A stretch of 64,000 nt of DNA from Sediminispirochaeta bajacaliforniensis DSM 16054 (GTDB taxonomy: Bacteria; Spirochaetota; Spirochaetia; DSM-16054; Sediminispirochaetaceae): positions 248,001 to 312,000 of the forward strand of contig NZ_KB899406.1 of NCBI RefSeq assembly GCF_000378205.1, given 5' to 3'. Positions 4,038 to 52,352 of this stretch are shown in pieces. Under the pieces are notes generated by a model. The model worked only from the letters and a program-made list of their open reading frames with translations, had not been told where the DNA came from and did no database searches. How positions within the stretch are numbered: the stretch's first letter is position 1; the number at the start of each line of letters is the position of its first letter. A program made the translations under genes and the position numbers.

Positions 4038-5559
4038 AGTATTAAAAGTATTAATTGTCGAGGATGAAAAAGCTGCAGTCGATCGAATCCTTCGGATGGA
4101 ACTTTGGAATGGCCCGGAGTTTACCGTGGGCGGAGTGGCTCCGGATGGGAAGAAGGGCCTTGAGATGTTCTTCTCCGTCTCTCCCGACCTGATTCTCACG
4201 GACATCGCCATGCCTGTTATGGACGGTCTTGAATTCATCGAGCAGGTGAGAAGAGAAGATCGCTATATTCCCATTGTCATACTCAGCTGCTATGAAAGTT
4301 TTTCCTATGCAAGACGGGCGATCCGACTGTGTGTCGCCGATTACCTTCTGAAGGATTTTCTGGATGAACAGCGTCTCTACCACGTACTGAAAGGAGCCCT
4401 CCCTGTTCCTCATCGCCGGGCCCCTTCCGGTCAGGAGTCTCCCGGACCATCGAGGAGCGATCTTTTTGGCCGGGCTCTTTTCGGAGAACAGGGGGATCCG
4501 CTTAGTTTTCATTCATGGTGCCGGTTCCGGAAAAATGATGCCCCTTTCAGACTCTTGTTGGTCGGTGGATATAGGCCCGAACGCGAGTCCGAATGCTTTA
4601 CCGAACGGCTTATGAATGTGGGGCATCCCGAAACTCTGGATTGGGTTTTCTTGGGTGATGAAAAGATCCTCATTCTTTTTACCGGAGATCTCTGGAATGA
4701 TCGTGTGGTGGAAGAGAGCGTCGTTGCGCTGCGGAATGAACTTGGCAATACAAAGGAAATTTCTTTGGTTCTCGGCAATTCCTTCGCGGAGCCGGAAATG
4801 TTGCCGGAAGAATATCGGAAGGTAAAGCATCTGGCTTCGTATCGGCTTTTTTTCGGCGCCAATTGTATCATCACTCCCGCCCTCGTGGAGCCTGTTGCCG
4901 ATCTTTCTCCTCAACAGATTGACAGAAGGATGAAAAATATCGAAGAGCTTTTGACACAGGAAAAGTATCAGGAGGCTGCGGAAAAAATCGGAAGACTCTA
5001 TCGCCGTGATCTTGCGGGAATGATGCAGTATCACTATGTCTCCGAGCTCAATAGACGCCTGTTGTCCTTGCTTCACCGGGAGCGGAAACGCATCGGCTTG
5101 GATGAGTCGGCAGAACTTCCCGTCGCCGAGCTGGAAGCCGCTGATACCCTCCAGGAGATTGCCGATTGGTTTCGTGCCCAATATACCCTCTTATCGGGCG
5201 AAGCAGGGAAGATTGTCTTTCCTCGGGTAGGCAACCGCAAAATTCGTCTTGTTCTGGACCTTATCCGGAAAGAGTATGCAAAGGAGCTTTCATTGGAACG
5301 CGTGGCCGAAAGGGTCGATATCCATAAGGTCTACCTCAGCAGGCTTTTTCGGCGGGAAACCGGCTACACCTTTTACGATTTCCTGCAGCGATACAGAATT
5401 TCCCTGGCTGCGGAAAGGCTGAGGCATTCCGATGTGAAAATTGGTGATCTTGCCGCCGAAGTCGGCTTTCACCATCCTGACCAGTTTGCTTCGGTTTTCA
5501 AGAAGATCACCGGGGTTACGCCCTCTTCCTTTCGTAATCATCCGATTTCTTTCAGGTAG
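4030..5559 (+). CDS. AraC-type response regulator (YesN family)
   Basis: The 509-residue protein starts with a receiver domain (residues 1-120; acidic pair in VEDE, phospho-acceptor Asp in LILTDIAMPVMDG, Lys in DYLLKDF), followed by a middle region of about 270 residues and a C-terminal AraC HTH pair (about 405-505, ending in VGFHHPDQFASVFKKITG). I chose ATG 4030 because GGGAG at 4018-4022 is well spaced for it; a GTG at 4024 is possible. It is the cognate partner of the kinase before it. The obvious target is the sugar importer that follows; a repeated 21-base sequence just before that operon's promoter (5609-5629) is a good candidate binding site. Confidence 0.9.
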   Translation: MNKVLKVLIVEDEKAAVDRILRMELWNGPEFTVGGVAPDGKKGLEMFFSVSPDLILTDIAMPVMDGLEFIEQVRREDRYIPIVILSCYESFSYARRAIRLCVADYLLKDFLDEQRLYHVLKGALPVPHRRAPSGQESPGPSRSDLFGRALFGEQGDPLSFHSWCRFRKNDAPFRLLLVGGYRPERESECFTERLMNVGHPETLDWVFLGDEKILILFTGDLWNDRVVEESVVALRNELGNTKEISLVLGNSFAEPEMLPEEYRKVKHLASYRLFFGANCIITPALVEPVADLSPQQIDRRMKNIEELLTQEKYQEAAEKIGRLYRRDLAGMMQYHYVSELNRRLLSLLHRERKRIGLDESAELPVAELEAADTLQEIADWFRAQYTLLSGEAGKIVFPRVGNRKIRLVLDLIRKEYAKELSLERVAERVDIHKVYLSRLFRRETGYTFYDFLQRYRISLAAERLRHSDVKIGDLAAEVGFHHPDQFASVFKKITGVTPSSFRNHPISFR

Positions 5560-45918: not shown

Positions 45919-48513
45919 GTGAAACCTCTGTCGTATGGAGCCTTTGCTCTTGTCTTTTTTTATGCCTACCTTGCTTACCTGATACTTCGGCACAACCCTG
46001 CTTCCCTTCTTAATCGGCTTGTTGCCCTGCTTTTGACCGATTTTGCGTTTTGGGCCCTCTACACGACATTCAGCACTGCGGTTGAAGATTATGCCTTCGC
46101 TCTGAGCCTGTATAAGGTTTTCTCTCCCCTCTGGCATATGTTCCCCGGAATTGCCCTCCATATCGCCCTCCATGTGCATGGATTTGATCGAAAAATTCCG
46201 GGGCCCCTGCGTTATCTCCTGCTTTATGTTCCCGGTTGTATAACGGCCTGGGGCTATTACCGCTTTGTTTTCGTCGGTTTGGAGATGAACCGCTGGTATC
46301 TCATGGGCATCATAGATACCTCATCTGCCTGGTTTTACCTCTATAATGCATATCTTTTGCTTTATGTAGGGGCCTCAATTACCCTCTTGCTTCTTCGGGG
46401 ATATAGAAGTGGAATCCACCGAATCAAGATTCAGTCCCGCTACCTCGGCTGGTCGATGACGATTAGCCTTCTGTTGGGGCTCTGCTCCAATGCTTTGCTC
46501 CCCTCTCTTGGCATTGAGTTTCCCTTTATGGCAATTTACTGGAATACGATCTGGGCCGTCGGGCTCTCTGTGGCCGTCACCCGGTACGGTTTTTCCCGTA
46601 TTACTGCCAGCCTTGCTGTTTCCCAGCTCCTTGCCCAAGTTCGGGATTTCCTTCTTATTCTGGATACAGAGGGGGATATTTTTACTGCCAGCGATTTTTT
46701 GTGCCACCGGCTTCGGCTTTCCGAAGCTGAGCTGAAGGGGCGTTCCGTTGCCGTTGTCATTGAAGATGCCTCTTTCTTCTCTCGCGTCCGCAAGCGTTTT
46801 TCGGCAGGAGCCGGCCTGTTTCAGGAAGAGATTGTGATCCGGTCCGTTCCCGTTCTCATGAACATATCGCCGATGTATTCCCGGGAGGGAGAACTTCTGG
46901 GATACCTTTGCGTCGGTCATGATGTACGGCATCTTCGCAAGTTGCGTGAGACCCTCCGGAAATTCGAGGGATTTATCCAGAACGCCCTGGACGGGATTGT
47001 TCTTACCGATGAGCAGGGGCTTATCAGCCACTGGAATCGTGGCATGGAGCTGGTAACGGGAAGTATGCACAGGGAGATGGTGGGGAAGCCCCTGTGGGAA
47101 GCTGCAGATCGGGTGGTAGCGGGAGAGAATGATCGGCAGCCTGTATTTGAAGGGGCCATTCGTTCCGTGCTCAGGGAGGGATCGGCCCCCTGGCTCGGCG
47201 TCCTGCACGATTTGACCATCCAGAGGAGCGATGGCGGAATGCGTCTCGTCCAGGTAAAGCCTTTTCTTGTTTCAACCAATAGGGGTTATATCCTTTCCTT
47301 CATTATTCGTGACGTGACGGAGTATCAACAGATGCAGGATGAGCGGGTCCGTCTGATCCAGCAGCTTGCCGATGCCCAACGCCTTAAGGCAATCGGAACC
47401 CTTGCCGGCGGATTGGCCCACAACTTCAATAATATCCTTGGCGGTCTCTACGGTTCTCTTAGTCTTCTTCGAAGTGTCGTTGAAAACTGGCCCGTGGACA
47501 GAGCCGAGGTTCTTGATCGAATAGACGATATGGAAATCCTTTCCCGGAGGGGGGCAGAGGTCGTACGCCACCTTCTCTCCATTTCCGGTGGCCGCCGGAG
47601 GGAGTATCAGCGGATCGATCTTGTCCCTGTGGTGGAGGCAGTACTTCTTATGTGTCGAAATAGTTTTGACAAAAGTGTGACCATCAAAAAAGAGCTTCCC
47701 GACCATGCAGAGGTCCTGGGTGAGCCTTCCGAACTCGAACAGCTGTTACTTAATCTTGCCATCAACGGCTTGCACGCCATGACGATTATGCGACAAGAAC
47801 GGTCGCAGTGGGGCGGAAAACTATTGATTGCCTTACGAAAAACGGACCAGGGTTGCCTGCTTGTTGTTGAGGATCAGGGAGTAGGGATAGACGATGAAAC
47901 GATTAAACAGATGTTCGATCCCTTTTTTACCACCAAAGAGGAGGGGTTCGGTACCGGGTTCGGCCTTTCGATGGTACAACGGATCGTCCGGGATCTTGGT
48001 GCAAAGATTGATGTCACATCGACTGTTGGCGTCGGAACACGTTTCGCCATCCTTTTTCCCCAAATTGAAGAGGCCAGACTGCTATCCATCGATGCCTCGG
48101 AAGGTTCTTCTTCCGATGAACCCCTTGTTTCTCCCCATGCCTGTCCCGGCAAGATGATACTGCTTGTGGATGATGAGGCTCCTGTTCGGATTACAACCGG
48201 CAAGATCCTCGAACGGGCGGGATACCGGATTCTGACGGCAGAGAACGGCAAAGAGGCGATTGCCTTGCACCAACGGATGGGGCATCACATTGCTCTTACG
48301 ATTCTTGATCTCACTATGCCGGGGCTTTCAGGTCTCGAGACCATGAGACAACTGAAGGAGATCGATCCTGAGGTCATGATTCTTTTGACCAGCGGCGGTT
48401 ATACCGCTATATTGTCGCATCCGATTATTGCAAAGCCATACACGCCGGAAGAGTTGCTATCGCGTGTGGCCGATATGATACGAATCGGGACGATCGAGGA
48501 AGAAAAGAGGTAG
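45919..48513 (+). CDS. 7TM-PAS hybrid histidine kinase with C-terminal receiver
   Basis: The 864-residue protein has seven predicted membrane helices (residues about 1-230; histidine-kinase N-terminal 7TM type), two PAS domains (about 240-345 and 350-480), a HisKA helix with phospho-His in LAGGLAHNFNNILGG, the ATPase boxes LAINGLHAM, VEDQGVGID and FDPFFTTKEEGFGTGFG, and a receiver (about 745-860, Asp in LTILDLTMPG). It senses a ligand or state in the membrane and relays phosphate internally. The GTG start follows AAGGGA at 8 bases. The TetR gene begins 41 bases later. Confidence 0.9.
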   Translation: MKPLSYGAFALVFFYAYLAYLILRHNPASLLNRLVALLLTDFAFWALYTTFSTAVEDYAFALSLYKVFSPLWHMFPGIALHIALHVHGFDRKIPGPLRYLLLYVPGCITAWGYYRFVFVGLEMNRWYLMGIIDTSSAWFYLYNAYLLLYVGASITLLLLRGYRSGIHRIKIQSRYLGWSMTISLLLGLCSNALLPSLGIEFPFMAIYWNTIWAVGLSVAVTRYGFSRITASLAVSQLLAQVRDFLLILDTEGDIFTASDFLCHRLRLSEAELKGRSVAVVIEDASFFSRVRKRFSAGAGLFQEEIVIRSVPVLMNISPMYSREGELLGYLCVGHDVRHLRKLRETLRKFEGFIQNALDGIVLTDEQGLISHWNRGMELVTGSMHREMVGKPLWEAADRVVAGENDRQPVFEGAIRSVLREGSAPWLGVLHDLTIQRSDGGMRLVQVKPFLVSTNRGYILSFIIRDVTEYQQMQDERVRLIQQLADAQRLKAIGTLAGGLAHNFNNILGGLYGSLSLLRSVVENWPVDRAEVLDRIDDMEILSRRGAEVVRHLLSISGGRRREYQRIDLVPVVEAVLLMCRNSFDKSVTIKKELPDHAEVLGEPSELEQLLLNLAINGLHAMTIMRQERSQWGGKLLIALRKTDQGCLLVVEDQGVGIDDETIKQMFDPFFTTKEEGFGTGFGLSMVQRIVRDLGAKIDVTSTVGVGTRFAILFPQIEEARLLSIDASEGSSSDEPLVSPHACPGKMILLVDDEAPVRITTGKILERAGYRILTAENGKEAIALHQRMGHHIALTILDLTMPGLSGLETMRQLKEIDPEVMILLTSGGYTAILSHPIIAKPYTPEELLSRVADMIRIGTIEEEKR

Positions 48514-48519
48514 AGACTA

Positions 48520-48550
48520 TTGACTTTTATGTTACCACTTGGTAACATAA
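48520..48550 (+). promoter_or_regulatory. TetR autoregulatory promoter/operator
   Basis: TTATGTTACC (48527-48536) and GGTAACATAA (48541-48550) form a perfect 10-base dyad with the centre ACTT. It overlaps a promoter-like TTGACT (48520-48525) and TAACAT (48543-48548) with a 17-base spacer. The dyad recurs before the gene at 49184. Transcription from these boxes would begin at about the ATG (48555), so the mRNA may be leaderless or nearly so. Confidence 0.75.
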
Positions 48551-48554
48551 GTGT

Positions 48555-49139
48555 ATGAAGGATCGAAAGCAGACGGAAGAGCAAATTCTTACCGCCTTGG
48601 ATCGGCTTTTTCTCTCTAAAGGTTTTACCGGATTGGGGGTGAATGCGGTTGCCAAGGAAGCAGGTGTATCAAAGGTTCTCATCTATCGTTATTTTGGGGG
48701 CATTGATGAGCTGTTGGAGACATGGGCACTGCGAAACAGCTATTGGATCGGGGGAATGAAGCGTCCCGTTCCGCTTGACGATCCCAAACAGACGGCTCAG
48801 TATATCTTTCGTGAGTATATTGCCGATCTTCGGGAACACCCGGTGAAGCGTGAAATTTTACGCTGGTTTTTGGCGGAGAGAACCGAGCTTGGGATCAAGG
48901 TGATGCGGAAGATCGAACAGGAAGGGCTTGCCTTTACCCGTTGGCTTGTGGATCAGTTTCCCCATAATCATACCGCGGATCTTGAGGCCCTTGTCGCTCT
49001 TCTCACTACCGGTATTTCCTACCTTGTACTCCTTTCCGATCGGGCCGATGTCTATAACGGCGTTGATCTGAAGAGTCAGGAGGGATGGGATCGGATATTC
49101 TCCGTCCTCGAACGTATCATTGAGGATAGCTTTACATAA
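48555..49139 (+). CDS. TetR-family transcriptional repressor
   Basis: The 194-residue protein has the TetR HTH (about residues 10-55, TALDRLFLSKGFTGLGVNAV and AKEAGVSKVLIYRYFGG) and a helical ligand-binding domain. There is no clear ribosome binding site before ATG 48555. Its own promoter carries a dyad, GTTACC-N4-GGTAAC, that is repeated before the next operon (49151-49174), so it very probably represses itself and that operon. The inducer is unknown. Confidence 0.92.
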   Translation: MKDRKQTEEQILTALDRLFLSKGFTGLGVNAVAKEAGVSKVLIYRYFGGIDELLETWALRNSYWIGGMKRPVPLDDPKQTAQYIFREYIADLREHPVKREILRWFLAERTELGIKVMRKIEQEGLAFTRWLVDQFPHNHTADLEALVALLTTGISYLVLLSDRADVYNGVDLKSQEGWDRIFSVLERIIEDSFT

Positions 49140-49150
49140 TTTTTTTATAG

Positions 49151-49174
49151 ACATGTAACCAAACGGTAACATGT
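49151..49174 (+). promoter_or_regulatory. Second TetR operator, before the lipoprotein operon
   Basis: ACATGTAACC (49151-49160) and GGTAACATGT (49165-49174) form a near-perfect dyad with one mismatch and a 4-base centre. The core GTAACC-N4-GGTAAC matches the operator at 48527-48550. It lies directly before the ribosome binding site of the gene at 49184, where bound repressor would block transcription. Confidence 0.8.
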
Positions 49175-49183
49175 GGAGGTGTT

Positions 49184-49894
49184 ATGAAACATTGGTTTTA
49201 CATCACGGTTACGCTCCTCGCTTTTACACTCGTTTCCTGCAGCAGTGCGGGGGAGACTGCTCAACAAGGGGATTACCTGCTTACCGTTAATCCGGGAGAA
49301 GAATGGCTGCACCAGTACAGTACCTTCATCAAAAATCCGCCGCAATATGCGATTTGGATGGAAGATGCTTCGGGTACCTATCTCGGCTCACTGTTTGTTA
49401 CCCGTAAAATTGCCACCGAGGGGTGGATCTTTAACGGGGAAAATCGAAGGGTAGAGGCGCTTCCTGTCTGGTCACACCGTCGAAATATCACCGACGGTGC
49501 AGGCTTTCTTGTACCAAGCAAGGAAAAACCCCTGGCGGACGGAATCACCGGGGCAACACCCAAAAGGGAACAGGAGCTTCTGCTCAGGCCGACGGACAAG
49601 GATGGAAGCTTCTGGCTCTACCTTGAGATCAACCATTCTACGGATTTCAATGGTTCCTGGCCCGAGGACGCTTCGCCGGAAGATGAGAACTGGAGCGGCG
49701 GCGAGGGGGGCAGCGGGCAGCCGTCGCTGGTTTATCGCTGTTTCGTCGACCCTGCCTCAGCCGGCAGCTGGAGCATGACGCTGATCGGCCACGGAAGTCC
49801 CGATGGCTCGGATGGTGGAATCTATCCCGATATCAGTTCTCTCACTACGGCTCTTCGAATATTGGAATCGGCAGAGGTTGAACGCCTGCCATGA
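49184..49894 (+). CDS. Exported lipoprotein of the TetR regulon (DUF2271-like)
   Basis: The 236-residue protein has a lipoprotein signal peptide (lipobox LVSCSS, Cys at about residue 19) and an all-beta body, with YAIWMEDASGTYLGSLFVTR and FWLYLEINHSTDFNGSWPED as clear strands. The pattern resembles DUF2271-type periplasmic proteins that accompany flavin or redox systems, but that match is tentative. GGAGG at 49175-49179 gives the start. It overlaps the next gene by 4 bases and is under the TetR operator. Confidence 0.7.
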   Translation: MKHWFYITVTLLAFTLVSCSSAGETAQQGDYLLTVNPGEEWLHQYSTFIKNPPQYAIWMEDASGTYLGSLFVTRKIATEGWIFNGENRRVEALPVWSHRRNITDGAGFLVPSKEKPLADGITGATPKREQELLLRPTDKDGSFWLYLEINHSTDFNGSWPEDASPEDENWSGGEGGSGQPSLVYRCFVDPASAGSWSMTLIGHGSPDGSDGGIYPDISSLTTALRILESAEVERLP

Positions 49895-50412
49895 AGTATT
49901 CCATCGTCATTGTCACTCTCGTACTGTTTTTTTCTCCCTCCGTGCTTCCTTGTGAGGACTGGAGGGGCGGAGTATCCCTTTCTTCCGACGCGCTTTTGAT
50001 TTCGACGGAAAGAGAAGTGCTTGATAACCTTTTCATGGGGATTGAGCTGGGGCCGGCCTGGGAGCGGGAAGCGGATTTTCGTATTGATGATTTTCTTGTG
50101 CGGACAACGGTGCGCTGGTTTCCGCCGCTTTTCGCAGGGCTGTACCCCTATTTTCTGACCTTTGCTGAACTTTGGTGTGTGGATACCGGCTATGCGCAAT
50201 TCGCCGCCCCGGGCATCTGCCTGGGGGCCGGCTGGAGTCTCCCTGTCGGCCGCAGTCACGCACTGTTTATTGAGGGAGGATGGCAGTTTGCGAGACGACA
50301 TATTAATACCAGCTATGAGACGACATCCTACGCCGTCTTTTACAACGAAATGTGGTCTGCTCCGTCCTTATTGATTACTATCGGATGGAGACAGGCTTGG
50401 GGAGGAACATAG
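49891..50412 (+). CDS. Hypothetical exported protein
   Basis: The 173-residue protein has a signal peptide (residues 1-20, VIVTLVLFFSPSVLPC) and a beta-rich body with many aromatic residues and turns (YPYFLTFAELWCVDTGYAQF), as in small outer-membrane or periplasmic beta-barrels. I do not recognise a family. ATG 49891 overlaps the lipoprotein stop. Its last base is shared with the next start, so the three genes are made together. Confidence 0.55.
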   Translation: MKYSIVIVTLVLFFSPSVLPCEDWRGGVSLSSDALLISTEREVLDNLFMGIELGPAWEREADFRIDDFLVRTTVRWFPPLFAGLYPYFLTFAELWCVDTGYAQFAAPGICLGAGWSLPVGRSHALFIEGGWQFARRHINTSYETTSYAVFYNEMWSAPSLLITIGWRQAWGGT

Positions 50413-50978
50413 TGGAAGCACTCATGTTGTACGGGAGCCCTCGGAGAAACGGGGTAAGCTCTCAAATTCTTGATTACCTTGGAAGATTGCTGCAGGAACA
50501 GGATGTTGCTGTTCGTACGGCGTTTCTGTACAAGGAAGAAATTAAGCCTTGCGTCGGGTGCCTTTGTTGTCGGCCCGACAAGAGCTGTGTTCTTCCCCGG
50601 GACGGCGGCCATACTATTGCCGAATGGATAGAGGTTGCCGATATCTTGATTGTCGGTACGCCTACCTACTGGGGTAATATGAGCGGGCCGATGAAAACGC
50701 TTTTTGACCGTTGTGTTCCCGTATTTGAGTACATCGACGGAGTGACGATCAAACGGCGTCAGAAGGGAAAAAAGGCGGTGATTGTCACCGCTTCCGCTGC
50801 CCCCTTTCCGGTAAACCTCCTTCGTTCCCAGGGCCGGGGAACAATCTCTTCCCTCAGAACCATTCTATCTGCCGGGGGATACCGGATCATCGGAACAATA
50901 CATGTGGCCGCTTCCGCAAGCTTTGACAAGCGGAAAAAAAGGATTTTCAAGAGACTTCATCGCCTGTTTCCTCTATAG
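50412..50978 (+). CDS. Flavodoxin-like NAD(P)H-dependent FMN reductase
   Basis: The 188-residue protein has the flavodoxin fold with the FMN-phosphate loop GSPRRNGVSS at residues 8-17, a Cys-rich C-V-G-C-L-C-C segment and the FMN ring loop TPTYWGNMSGPMKTLFDR. Such enzymes reduce FMN, quinones, nitro compounds or act in iron-sulphur flavoproteins. The GTG start has GGAGGA 5 bases upstream and overlaps the previous stop by one base. As part of the TetR regulon it suggests a response to a redox-active compound. Confidence 0.8.
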   Translation: MEALMLYGSPRRNGVSSQILDYLGRLLQEQDVAVRTAFLYKEEIKPCVGCLCCRPDKSCVLPRDGGHTIAEWIEVADILIVGTPTYWGNMSGPMKTLFDRCVPVFEYIDGVTIKRRQKGKKAVIVTASAAPFPVNLLRSQGRGTISSLRTILSAGGYRIIGTIHVAASASFDKRKKRIFKRLHRLFPL

Positions 50979-51178: not shown

Positions 51179-51580
51179 GTGCGGATTTCTGAAATAAGCG
51201 AAAAACATCACATTTCCCAGGATACGCTCAGATACTATGAACGCATCGGTTTGCTTCCTCCTGTAAACAGAAAACGCGGAGGAATTCGCGATTATACCGA
51301 GGAAGATGAGCGATGGGTCGAGTTTGTAACCTGTATGCGGGGGGCGGGACTTTCCATTGAGGCATTGATCGAATACGTCAGCTTGTGCCAGCAAGGGGAC
51401 AAAACCAGTACCGAACGCAAGGCCCTTCTCGTCGGGCAACGGGATGTTCTCATTTCGAAGATTGAGGAATTAAAAAAGACTCTGGCACGCCTAGAGAAGA
51501 AAATAGACAGCTATGAACGAGTTTTGCTTAAGAAAGAGCGCTCGATGGGCGGCTTCGGTGAGGAGATCCAGGATGCATGA
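51179..51580 (+). CDS. MerR-family transcriptional regulator
   Basis: The 133-residue protein has the MerR HTH (ISEISEKHHISQDTLRYYER then IGLLPPVNRKRGG) and a long dimerisation helix; there are no metal-binding cysteines, so it is of the aldehyde/multidrug (YraB/AdhR-like) type. The GTG start is imperfectly spaced from AAGGAG at 51163-51168, which leaves a small doubt about the exact start. Its promoter has the MerR 19-base spacer. Downstream lies a degenerate aldo/keto reductase, the kind of gene this regulator type normally controls. Confidence 0.85.
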   Translation: MRISEISEKHHISQDTLRYYERIGLLPPVNRKRGGIRDYTEEDERWVEFVTCMRGAGLSIEALIEYVSLCQQGDKTSTERKALLVGQRDVLISKIEELKKTLARLEKKIDSYERVLLKKERSMGGFGEEIQDA

Positions 51581-52352
51581 TGATACGCAGAAGAGATTCC
51601 GCAGAAAAAACGCCGCCGACCATGCTTTTGAAAGAAAAGGGAGATCAGAAGCGAATCTTCAACGAGCAACTCGAGAAATGTGGTGTGGATTATTTTGATT
51701 ATTATCTTTTACATAACCTCACAATCTCTCATTACGAGATAGCGAAGATATTCGACAGCTTTTCGTTTGTCCGAAAGATGCAGGCGGAGGGAAAAATCGG
51801 GGAGGTCGGCTTTTCTTTCCATGACCGGACCCAATTGCTGGATAAAATTCTCATGGATCATCCCGAGATGGATTTCGTACAGTTGCAGATTAATTACGTC
51901 GACTGGGAGAATGAGAGCATCCAGTCTGGATGGCGTATTCATGGTGCTAAGCGGCATGTCGAGTATGGAGCAACTGCTCGACAATACCGCATACATGGAT
52001 GCCTTCAGAAAGATCTCGCCGGAAGAACGAAAAGGTATAGAAGGTGTGGTCGGATCTGATCAATGCACCACTTGCGGTTCCCTGCGCCGCCTGCCGTTAT
52101 TGTGAGGATGGCTGTCTGCAGAACATCGCGATACCGGAGTATTTTGCCCTTCTTAACGAGGAAAAGCGGGCGGGAACGAAGGGCTTTTCCATTCAGCGGG
52201 TGTATTACGGAAATTACGCGCAGACCTTTGGAAAGGCTTCGGACTGTATTGCTTGCGGAAACTGTGAAGAGAGCTGCCCCCAGCACATTCCCATCATGAA
52301 CGTGCTGAAGGAGGTTGCCTCGAATTTCGAGGAGAAGCCTTCCCGGGCCTAA
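51577..52352 (+). pseudogene. Iron-sulphur aldo/keto reductase, degenerate
   Basis: Three frames hold parts of one aldo/keto reductase with a C-terminal ferredoxin-like domain. The first part (51577-51930) starts within KEKGDQKRIFNEQLEKCGVD and FDYYLLHNL and lacks the N-terminal 90 or so residues; the second frame carries VLSGMSSMEQLLDNTAYMDA directly after DWENESIQS, so roughly 100 residues are missing between; the third (52044-52352) holds CAACRYCEDGC and CIACGNCEESCPQHIPIM, the Fe-S ligand clusters. The several deletions and frame changes rule out a working enzyme. It starts by overlapping the MerR stop, a once-coupled operon. Confidence 0.88.

Follow-up and report, generated by a model that had tools for sequence, protein, structure and literature searches.

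A TetR-family repressor of the spirochaete Sediminispirochaeta bajacaliforniensis DSM 16054 is likely to control both its own gene and an adjacent operon of envelope flavoproteins through a single type of operator. The genes lie in a stretch of 64,000 nucleotides (nt) of contig NZ_KB899406.1 (assembly GCF_000378205.1, positions 248,001 to 312,000), referred to here as the window and numbered from its first letter. On the forward strand, tetR (48555-49139, ATG start) encodes a protein of 194 amino acids (aa) with a TetR_N domain (PF00440, E-value 1e-12) at residues 11-55. It is followed by genes for a DUF2271-like lipoprotein, a predicted small outer-membrane beta-barrel and a protein of the FMN_red/flavodoxin fold.

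Two operators carry this reading. O1 (48528-48549; TATGTTACC-ACTT-GGTAACATA) precedes tetR and O2 (49152-49173; CATGTAACC-AAAC-GGTAACATG) precedes the lipoprotein gene; neither is assigned to a strand, and both are conserved in relatives. A sequence-only reading of the same DNA had placed the cores GTTACC-ACTT-GGTAAC before tetR and GTAACC-AAAC-GGTAAC before the operon, and both were located as claimed, at 48531-48546 and 49155-49170. The dyads are longer than first noted, each spanning 22 base pairs (bp) in a 9-4-9 arrangement, with arms that match at nine of nine positions in O1 and at eight of nine in O2. Directly after O2 comes the sequence GGAGG (49175-49179).

The pattern GTWACCN4GGTWAC has two exact matches in the 4.57-Mb genome, both of them here and 624 nt apart; its backward-read control matches once in the same genome. 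When a 20-bp form of the operator was allowed up to two mismatches, the genome yielded two further sites, both poor. With the exact core at only two sites and these two poor extras, the regulon looks local, which supports the earlier proposal of one TetR, one operator type and a local regulon. A wider regulon in this genome was also considered and was set aside, since the 20-bp pattern found nothing beyond the two poor sites. Repression through O1 and O2 is very probable.

Operator recognition among relatives

The arrangement recurs in related spirochaetes. In a genome of the same genus (G001), TetR is 91% and the lipoprotein 93% identical to the window proteins; the corresponding values are 49% and 57% in G052, and 43% and 47% in G046. 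G001 and G052 each have one dyad before tetR and one before the lipoprotein gene. The two genes overlap in G046, which has one dyad, placed before tetR. Among 297 genomes of the class, the TetR subfamily was found in 27 (E ≤ 1e-15). The lipoprotein family was found in 56 (E ≤ 0.001), a number that includes weak partial matches. A scan of named genomes confirmed 517 TetR relatives. The best 80 of them were retained; they come from Bacteroidota, Cyanobacteriota, Thermodesulfobacteriota, Pseudomonadota, Myxococcota, Acidobacteriota, Synergistota and Ignavibacteriota, among other groups. These 80 were seeded on K[VI]LIYRYF, so that positions 40-47 are nearly fixed by the search and position 39 is free. 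Removal of five duplicate contigs (L115, L116, L117, L128 and L155) from 107 loci left 102, and 101 wherever residue 39 was needed, because the TetR of L104 is cut by a contig end. The subfamily is present in ten named phyla and has a flavoprotein-type neighbor in eight of them.

In the alignments, Ser39 of the window TetR immediately precedes the recognition helix KVLIYRYF. Dyads were sought from -200 to +40 nt of each predicted start, with at least eight of ten fixed positions matching and the third base of the half-site left free. Such a dyad occurs near tetR in 49 of the 53 loci with Ser, Asn or Ala at residue 39 and in 43 of the 48 with Asp39, as against 166 of 2,020 random 240-nt pieces from the same loci. 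In the Ser/Asn/Ala class, 91 of 98 half-sites have A or T as their third base, and in the Asp class 83 of 86 have C. Residue 39 thereby separates all 84 unmixed loci (44 Ser/Asn/Ala with A/T, 40 Asp with C), a count that excludes eight loci with mixed operators and nine without a dyad from the 101. It is also the TetR column best associated with this base, at 0.998 bit compared with 0.758 for the runner-up. Among Bacteroidota with a dyad, 24 of 26 Ser/Asn loci have A/T in both halves; three of four Asp39 loci have C in both halves and the fourth is mixed. These counts point to a strong association of residue 39 with the third base within the subfamily, which falls short of proving residue 39 the sole cause.

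On the target side of seven loci (L085, L086, L094, L095, L096, L097 and L099), two tandem dyads are found 27-33 nt apart, which suggests two dimers per promoter.

The tetR promoter and its start codon

The predicted tetR promoter (48520-48548, forward strand) consists of a -35 element TTGACT (48520-48525), a 17-nt spacer and a -10 element TAACAT (48543-48548). O1 lies mostly within the spacer, and its right half overlaps the -10, which ends 6 nt before the ATG at 48555. Transcription is predicted to begin at 48555, which is the A of the ATG, or at an adjacent base. Leaderless layout was taken to mean a -10 ending about 6-7 nt before the start codon with no Shine-Dalgarno motif, and tetR, at 6 nt, has no such motif. 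A pattern for the promoter-ATG layout, derived from this very site, has a single match in the window and none in 100 shuffles. By a general promoter scan, which returned four matches in all against 2.6 expected, the tetR site is an ordinary 9-of-12 match. The promoter owes its weight to the recurrence of the layout in relatives.

Residue 39 could be read in 26 spirochaete loci, 21 of which had both a dyad and an in-frame start and could be scored, the best-scoring dyad being taken at each locus (in L094, a weaker dyad 8 nt before an ATG was passed over). The start codon lies 8 nt (eight loci) or 9 nt (two loci) past the dyad in 10 of the 21, and a Shine-Dalgarno-like motif was found in none of these ten. 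All three loci with a spacing of 18-21 nt (L080, L085 and L086) have a Shine-Dalgarno motif. The other eight, which show different spacings, were all counted as not leaderless-like; a Shine-Dalgarno-like motif is present in two of them, L084 and L095, and not in the remaining six. A -10-like hexamer 5-6 nt before the start, with the spacing judged by eye, recurs in ten spirochaete loci without a Shine-Dalgarno motif. The tetR gene of G001 starts with GTG at the spacing seen in the window. The sequence-only reading had proposed a promoter whose start coincides with the tetR ATG, making a leaderless message possible; the promoter is as it described, and the layout recurs in the 10 of 21 loci. 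If the -10 is right, the tetR message is quite probably leaderless or nearly so.

The operon products and their counterparts

The first gene of the operon (49184-49894, forward strand) encodes a 236-aa protein with, by eye, a hydrophobic N-terminal stretch and a lipobox cysteine, Cys19. Its match to DUF2271 (PF10029) spans profile positions 18-73 of 136, and 15 of 15 aligned members, that of the window included, match this profile at E ≤ 0.1 (best 9.6e-7). The protein is a remote DUF2271 relative and is not filed as a member. In the available portion of one study, DUF2271 proteins are flavinylated by ApbE at [S/T]GA[S/T] (PMC8238504); the accessible text of another gives the minimal motif as D-x-x-[S/T]-G-A-[S/T], in which a change of the glycine lowers flavinylation (PMC12052999). 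The exported window protein has this motif at residues 119-125 as DGITGAT.

Across the family, the motif core without the glycine (D/E-x-x-S/T-x-A-S/T) is kept in 46 of 49 members, and the glycine itself is kept in 22 and missing in 27. The flavinylation motif was considered as a constant of the family, which is true only in part. All 12 copies directly before a barrel gene have the glycine, as do 10 of the 37 others (Fisher p 7e-6, in a test that ignores relatedness and relies on a barrel model built from seven of the same loci). In this count L079, whose barrel gene is damaged, and L156, whose barrel frame overlaps, were placed among the others; L049, the same gene as L109, and the second domain match of L159 were left out. 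L098 and L102 have two lipoprotein copies each, and in both the barrel-adjacent copy keeps the glycine and the other copy is without it. The genome has one copy of ApbE (G000:C8:113565-114401), away from the locus. ApbE is a common gene, present in eight of nine genomes tested around relative loci (the exception being a cyanobacterium); its presence is a weak test, because 7 of 14 control genomes have it too. Whether the lipoprotein carries a covalent flavin is evenly balanced.

At three loci (L106, L107 and L109, in G008, G033 and G118), the gene before that of the lipoprotein is another regulator-like one, which by eye looks TetR-like, and one of these regulators weakly matches the TetR model. 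No operator was found at the three loci. The lipoprotein may have become linked to TetR-type regulators on more than one occasion.

The second gene (49891-50412, forward strand) encodes a 173-aa protein with no Pfam match at E ≤ 0.1 and no NCBIfam match at E ≤ 0.01. It is predicted to be a small outer-membrane beta-barrel from a structure model with ten strands and a predicted local distance difference test (pLDDT) score of 77; in Foldseek, the model shows weak likeness to the CarO, OmpW and OmpA barrels (best E 2.5e-3, none ≤ 0.001). The third gene (50412-50978, forward strand, GTG start) encodes the 188-aa FMN_red protein (FMN_red E 3.6e-19), in which a CxxCxxCx5C motif has four cysteines kept in all six aligned sequences, the window included. 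FMN_red is also found in G104 and at four loci from Bacteroidota (L154, L162, L178 and L186). L154 and L186 combine FMN_red, lipoprotein and barrel in a gene order unlike that of the window. In the same-genus locus L079 of G001 (4622-5020), an internal deletion has joined the barrel gene to the FMN_red gene, and the end is missing. FMN_red is an accessory member of the operon.

Elsewhere, the same TetR subfamily stands beside other genes. In 76 of the 102 loci, and in 50 of the 53 with Ser, Asn or Ala at residue 39, a recognized partner lies within 2.5 kb, namely a gene for a nitroreductase, the lipoprotein or FMN_red. The 76 comprise 46 loci with an Acg-like nitroreductase, 28 with the lipoprotein and two with FMN_red alone; nitroreductase and lipoprotein share a locus in 0 of 102. 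These counts are not independent of their seeds, because the partner models were built from the same loci (from six nitroreductase, five FMN_red and seven barrel proteins), and the nitroreductase matches are matches to our own model, not each compared with the Acg models. Against PF00881, the six spirochaete nitroreductases tested all gave weak matches (E 7e-6 to 4e-3). Two of three nitroreductases tested pass the NCBIfam Acg model (NF047509), and the spirochaete one falls below it, with 170.7 against 199 bits. By eye, the spirochaete copies look like lipoproteins; a copy from Desulfobacteraceae has a twin-arginine translocation (Tat) signal. In a Synergistaceae locus (L131, 5689-6870), the gene after an Asp-type tetR resembles, by eye, a FadL-type outer-membrane protein.

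Mechanism, alternatives and significance

In the mechanism that we propose, a TetR dimer, or a pair of dimers, bound to O1 across the spacer and the -10 would shut its own leaderless promoter, and TetR on O2, just ahead of the Shine-Dalgarno sequence, would shut the lipoprotein-barrel-FMN_red operon. TetR would be released by a small molecule that is redox-active or electrophilic. The induced lipoprotein would carry covalent flavin mononucleotide (FMN) attached by the single ApbE of the genome, and would stand beside the small outer-membrane barrel, with the FMN-dependent reductase in the cytosol; together these proteins would act on a compound at the envelope, by reducing it or by delivering electrons to it. 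The presence of Acg-like nitroreductases beside the same TetR subfamily elsewhere fits a role in handling a reducible compound. Iron may be one candidate for what the operon acts on, because transposon insertions in a DUF2271 operon of Caulobacter lowered fitness under ethylenediaminetetraacetic acid (EDTA), according to the available part of that study (PMC11870441). Taken on its own, an envelope redox role of the operon is favored, if modestly. A broader proposal is tentative: one TetR subfamily may control interchangeable flavoproteins for one class of reducible compounds, either a DUF2271-like flavinylated lipoprotein with a barrel and an FMN reductase or an Acg-like nitroreductase. Its reading of DNA would be shifted between GTWACC and GTCACC half-sites through one residue, Ser/Asn39 versus Asp39, and in spirochaetes its operator would form part of a leaderless promoter of the repressor gene.

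It is most improbable that the dyads are chance palindromes or the sites of another regulator. The core pattern with two mismatches is seen six times in the window alone against 3.5 expected from shuffles, which is not above chance; however, just two exact sites exist genome-wide, at their short distance from each other, and the dyads beside related tetR genes lie far above the control and are associated with residue 39 of TetR. Another explanation concerns only the promoter: tetR could be translated from a message started upstream, by read-through from a histidine-kinase gene, with the leaderless layout incidental. The kinase gene is on the same strand and ends at 48513, 41 nt short of the tetR ATG; the interval showed no terminator-like site on that strand, and the tetR promoter matches at just 9 of 12 positions. 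Yet in G052 and G046 the frames upstream of tetR are, by eye, not this kinase, and the -10-like hexamer nonetheless recurs in the ten spirochaete loci. Leaderless messages are, moreover, common in the spirochaete Leptospira interrogans, as far as the available text of the source goes (PMC5243855), and the read-through explanation is quite unlikely.

A third alternative accepts TetR as a true autorepressor on the dyads but assigns the operon to envelope structure or transport, with DxxTGAT as a structural feature of the DUF2271-like fold. This would account for the 27 of 49 family members without the glycine, and it is helped by two of several findings that weigh against the redox reading: the DUF2271 match of the window lipoprotein stays below threshold (E 0.0077; 16.4 bits, gathering cut-off 27.3), and FMN_red is decayed in G001, the relative from the same genus, and missing at the loci of G052 and G046. 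Further findings of this kind are that the lipoprotein model matches no solved fold at E ≤ 0.001, and that ApbE is encoded on a different contig, on which a search allowing up to two mismatches turned up no operator. The flavoprotein link is also not universal, because 26 of the 102 loci, including all 12 from cyanobacteria and all three from Synergistota, have no recognized partner. The state of FMN_red in the three relatives weakens any redox idea drawn from the flavodoxin-like gene alone, and the lipoprotein is the stronger redox clue. Of the redox-like target operon in the sequence-only reading, what stands is that the targets look like envelope flavoproteins; the flavodoxin-like gene is not a constant part of it. 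On the other side, the motif core is kept nearly throughout the family, the glycine is present in every copy directly before a barrel gene, and the same TetR subfamily is found elsewhere beside Acg-like nitroreductases and FMN_red genes. A structural or transport role is unlikely.

The residue-39 part of the broader proposal faces counter-evidence of its own. On the best tree (101 rows), the Asp/Ser label changes three times, and supported branches force one change; a sign test, with one independent pair on supported branches, is not significant. A further search of Bacteroidota matched 16 of 395 genomes with 25 TetR matches, of which the helix pattern scored 13 (L195 among them being the same gene as L154) and missed 12; these were kept out of the counts given above. 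In these distant Bacteroidota the association does not appear, because 10 of the 13 scored loci have no good dyad, eight of the ten with Ser or Asn at residue 39. No dyad was found at seven (L196, L203, L204, L214, L216, L218 and L219), and three (L199, L212 and L217) have a poor or mixed one. L197 (Ser39) and L211 (Asn39) have A/T dyads as expected. Two of the 49 dyads of the Ser/Asn/Ala class, at L089 and L156, lie inside the gene and have G and C at the third base; they look like chance.

A TetR autorepressor with a local operon is a kind of system already known. AcrR, QacR and TetR are TetR-family local autorepressors, which the window system resembles in its TetR_N domain, its dyads at its own and the neighboring promoter, and its local regulon. 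It differs from them in an operon without an efflux pump, in the association of residue 39 with the operator, and in the leaderless-type promoter of the repressor gene. No NCBIfam equivalog reaches its cut-off against the window TetR, and comparison of its sequence with solved structures gave 49 weak matches (best E 2.3e-6), mostly to the DNA-binding end. The ApbE-flavinylated periplasmic DUF2271 proteins (PF10029) described in the available portion of PMC8238504 often have PepSY-like and DUF4198 partners. The window lipoprotein is like these substrates in its remote similarity, its export and its D-x-x-[ST]-G-A-T motif; unlike in those systems, as far as that portion describes them, its partners are TetR, the small barrel and FMN_red, in an operon without an ApbE gene. 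A DUF2271/PepSY operon of Caulobacter, which the accessible text links to periplasmic Fe(III) reduction and reports as raised in strains with low intracellular iron (PMC11870441), likewise joins a DUF2271 protein and a flavin-dependent reductase. In contrast to what that text describes, the window operon has a tetR gene and its operator next to it, and none of the operon proteins gave a match to PepSY. By our own model, the Acg family of FMN-binding oxidoreductases (NF047509) is a neighbor of this TetR subfamily in 46 of 102 loci; it is not in the window operon. Among the open-licence papers listed (12 of 1,100 for one search), none was seen to describe this TetR subfamily, the set of its targets, the association of residue 39 with the operator or a leaderless-type promoter of the repressor gene.

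Other features were observed downstream in the window. MerR-type activators use a long promoter spacer with a dyad. Before a merR-type gene at 51179, the segment 51068-51098 holds TTGACT, a 19-nt spacer with the dyad TGGAG-CTAA-CTCCA, and TATGTT. At 51577-52352, parts of an aldo/keto reductase and a 4Fe-4S protein lie in two overlapping short frames; the reductase gene looks broken, because the first frame matches only positions 82-168 of the 291 in the profile.

The favored reading, that of a TetR autorepressor with an adjacent envelope flavoprotein operon, ties one sensor to little-studied flavoproteins, namely the DUF2271-like lipoprotein and the Acg-like nitroreductases. The inducer of one repressor could thus reveal what both groups of flavoproteins act on. 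The association between residue 39 and the half-site offers a single-mutation test of operator change in TetR proteins, and the spirochaete promoters provide a naturally occurring collection in which to study how a self-regulating repressor is translated from leaderless messages.

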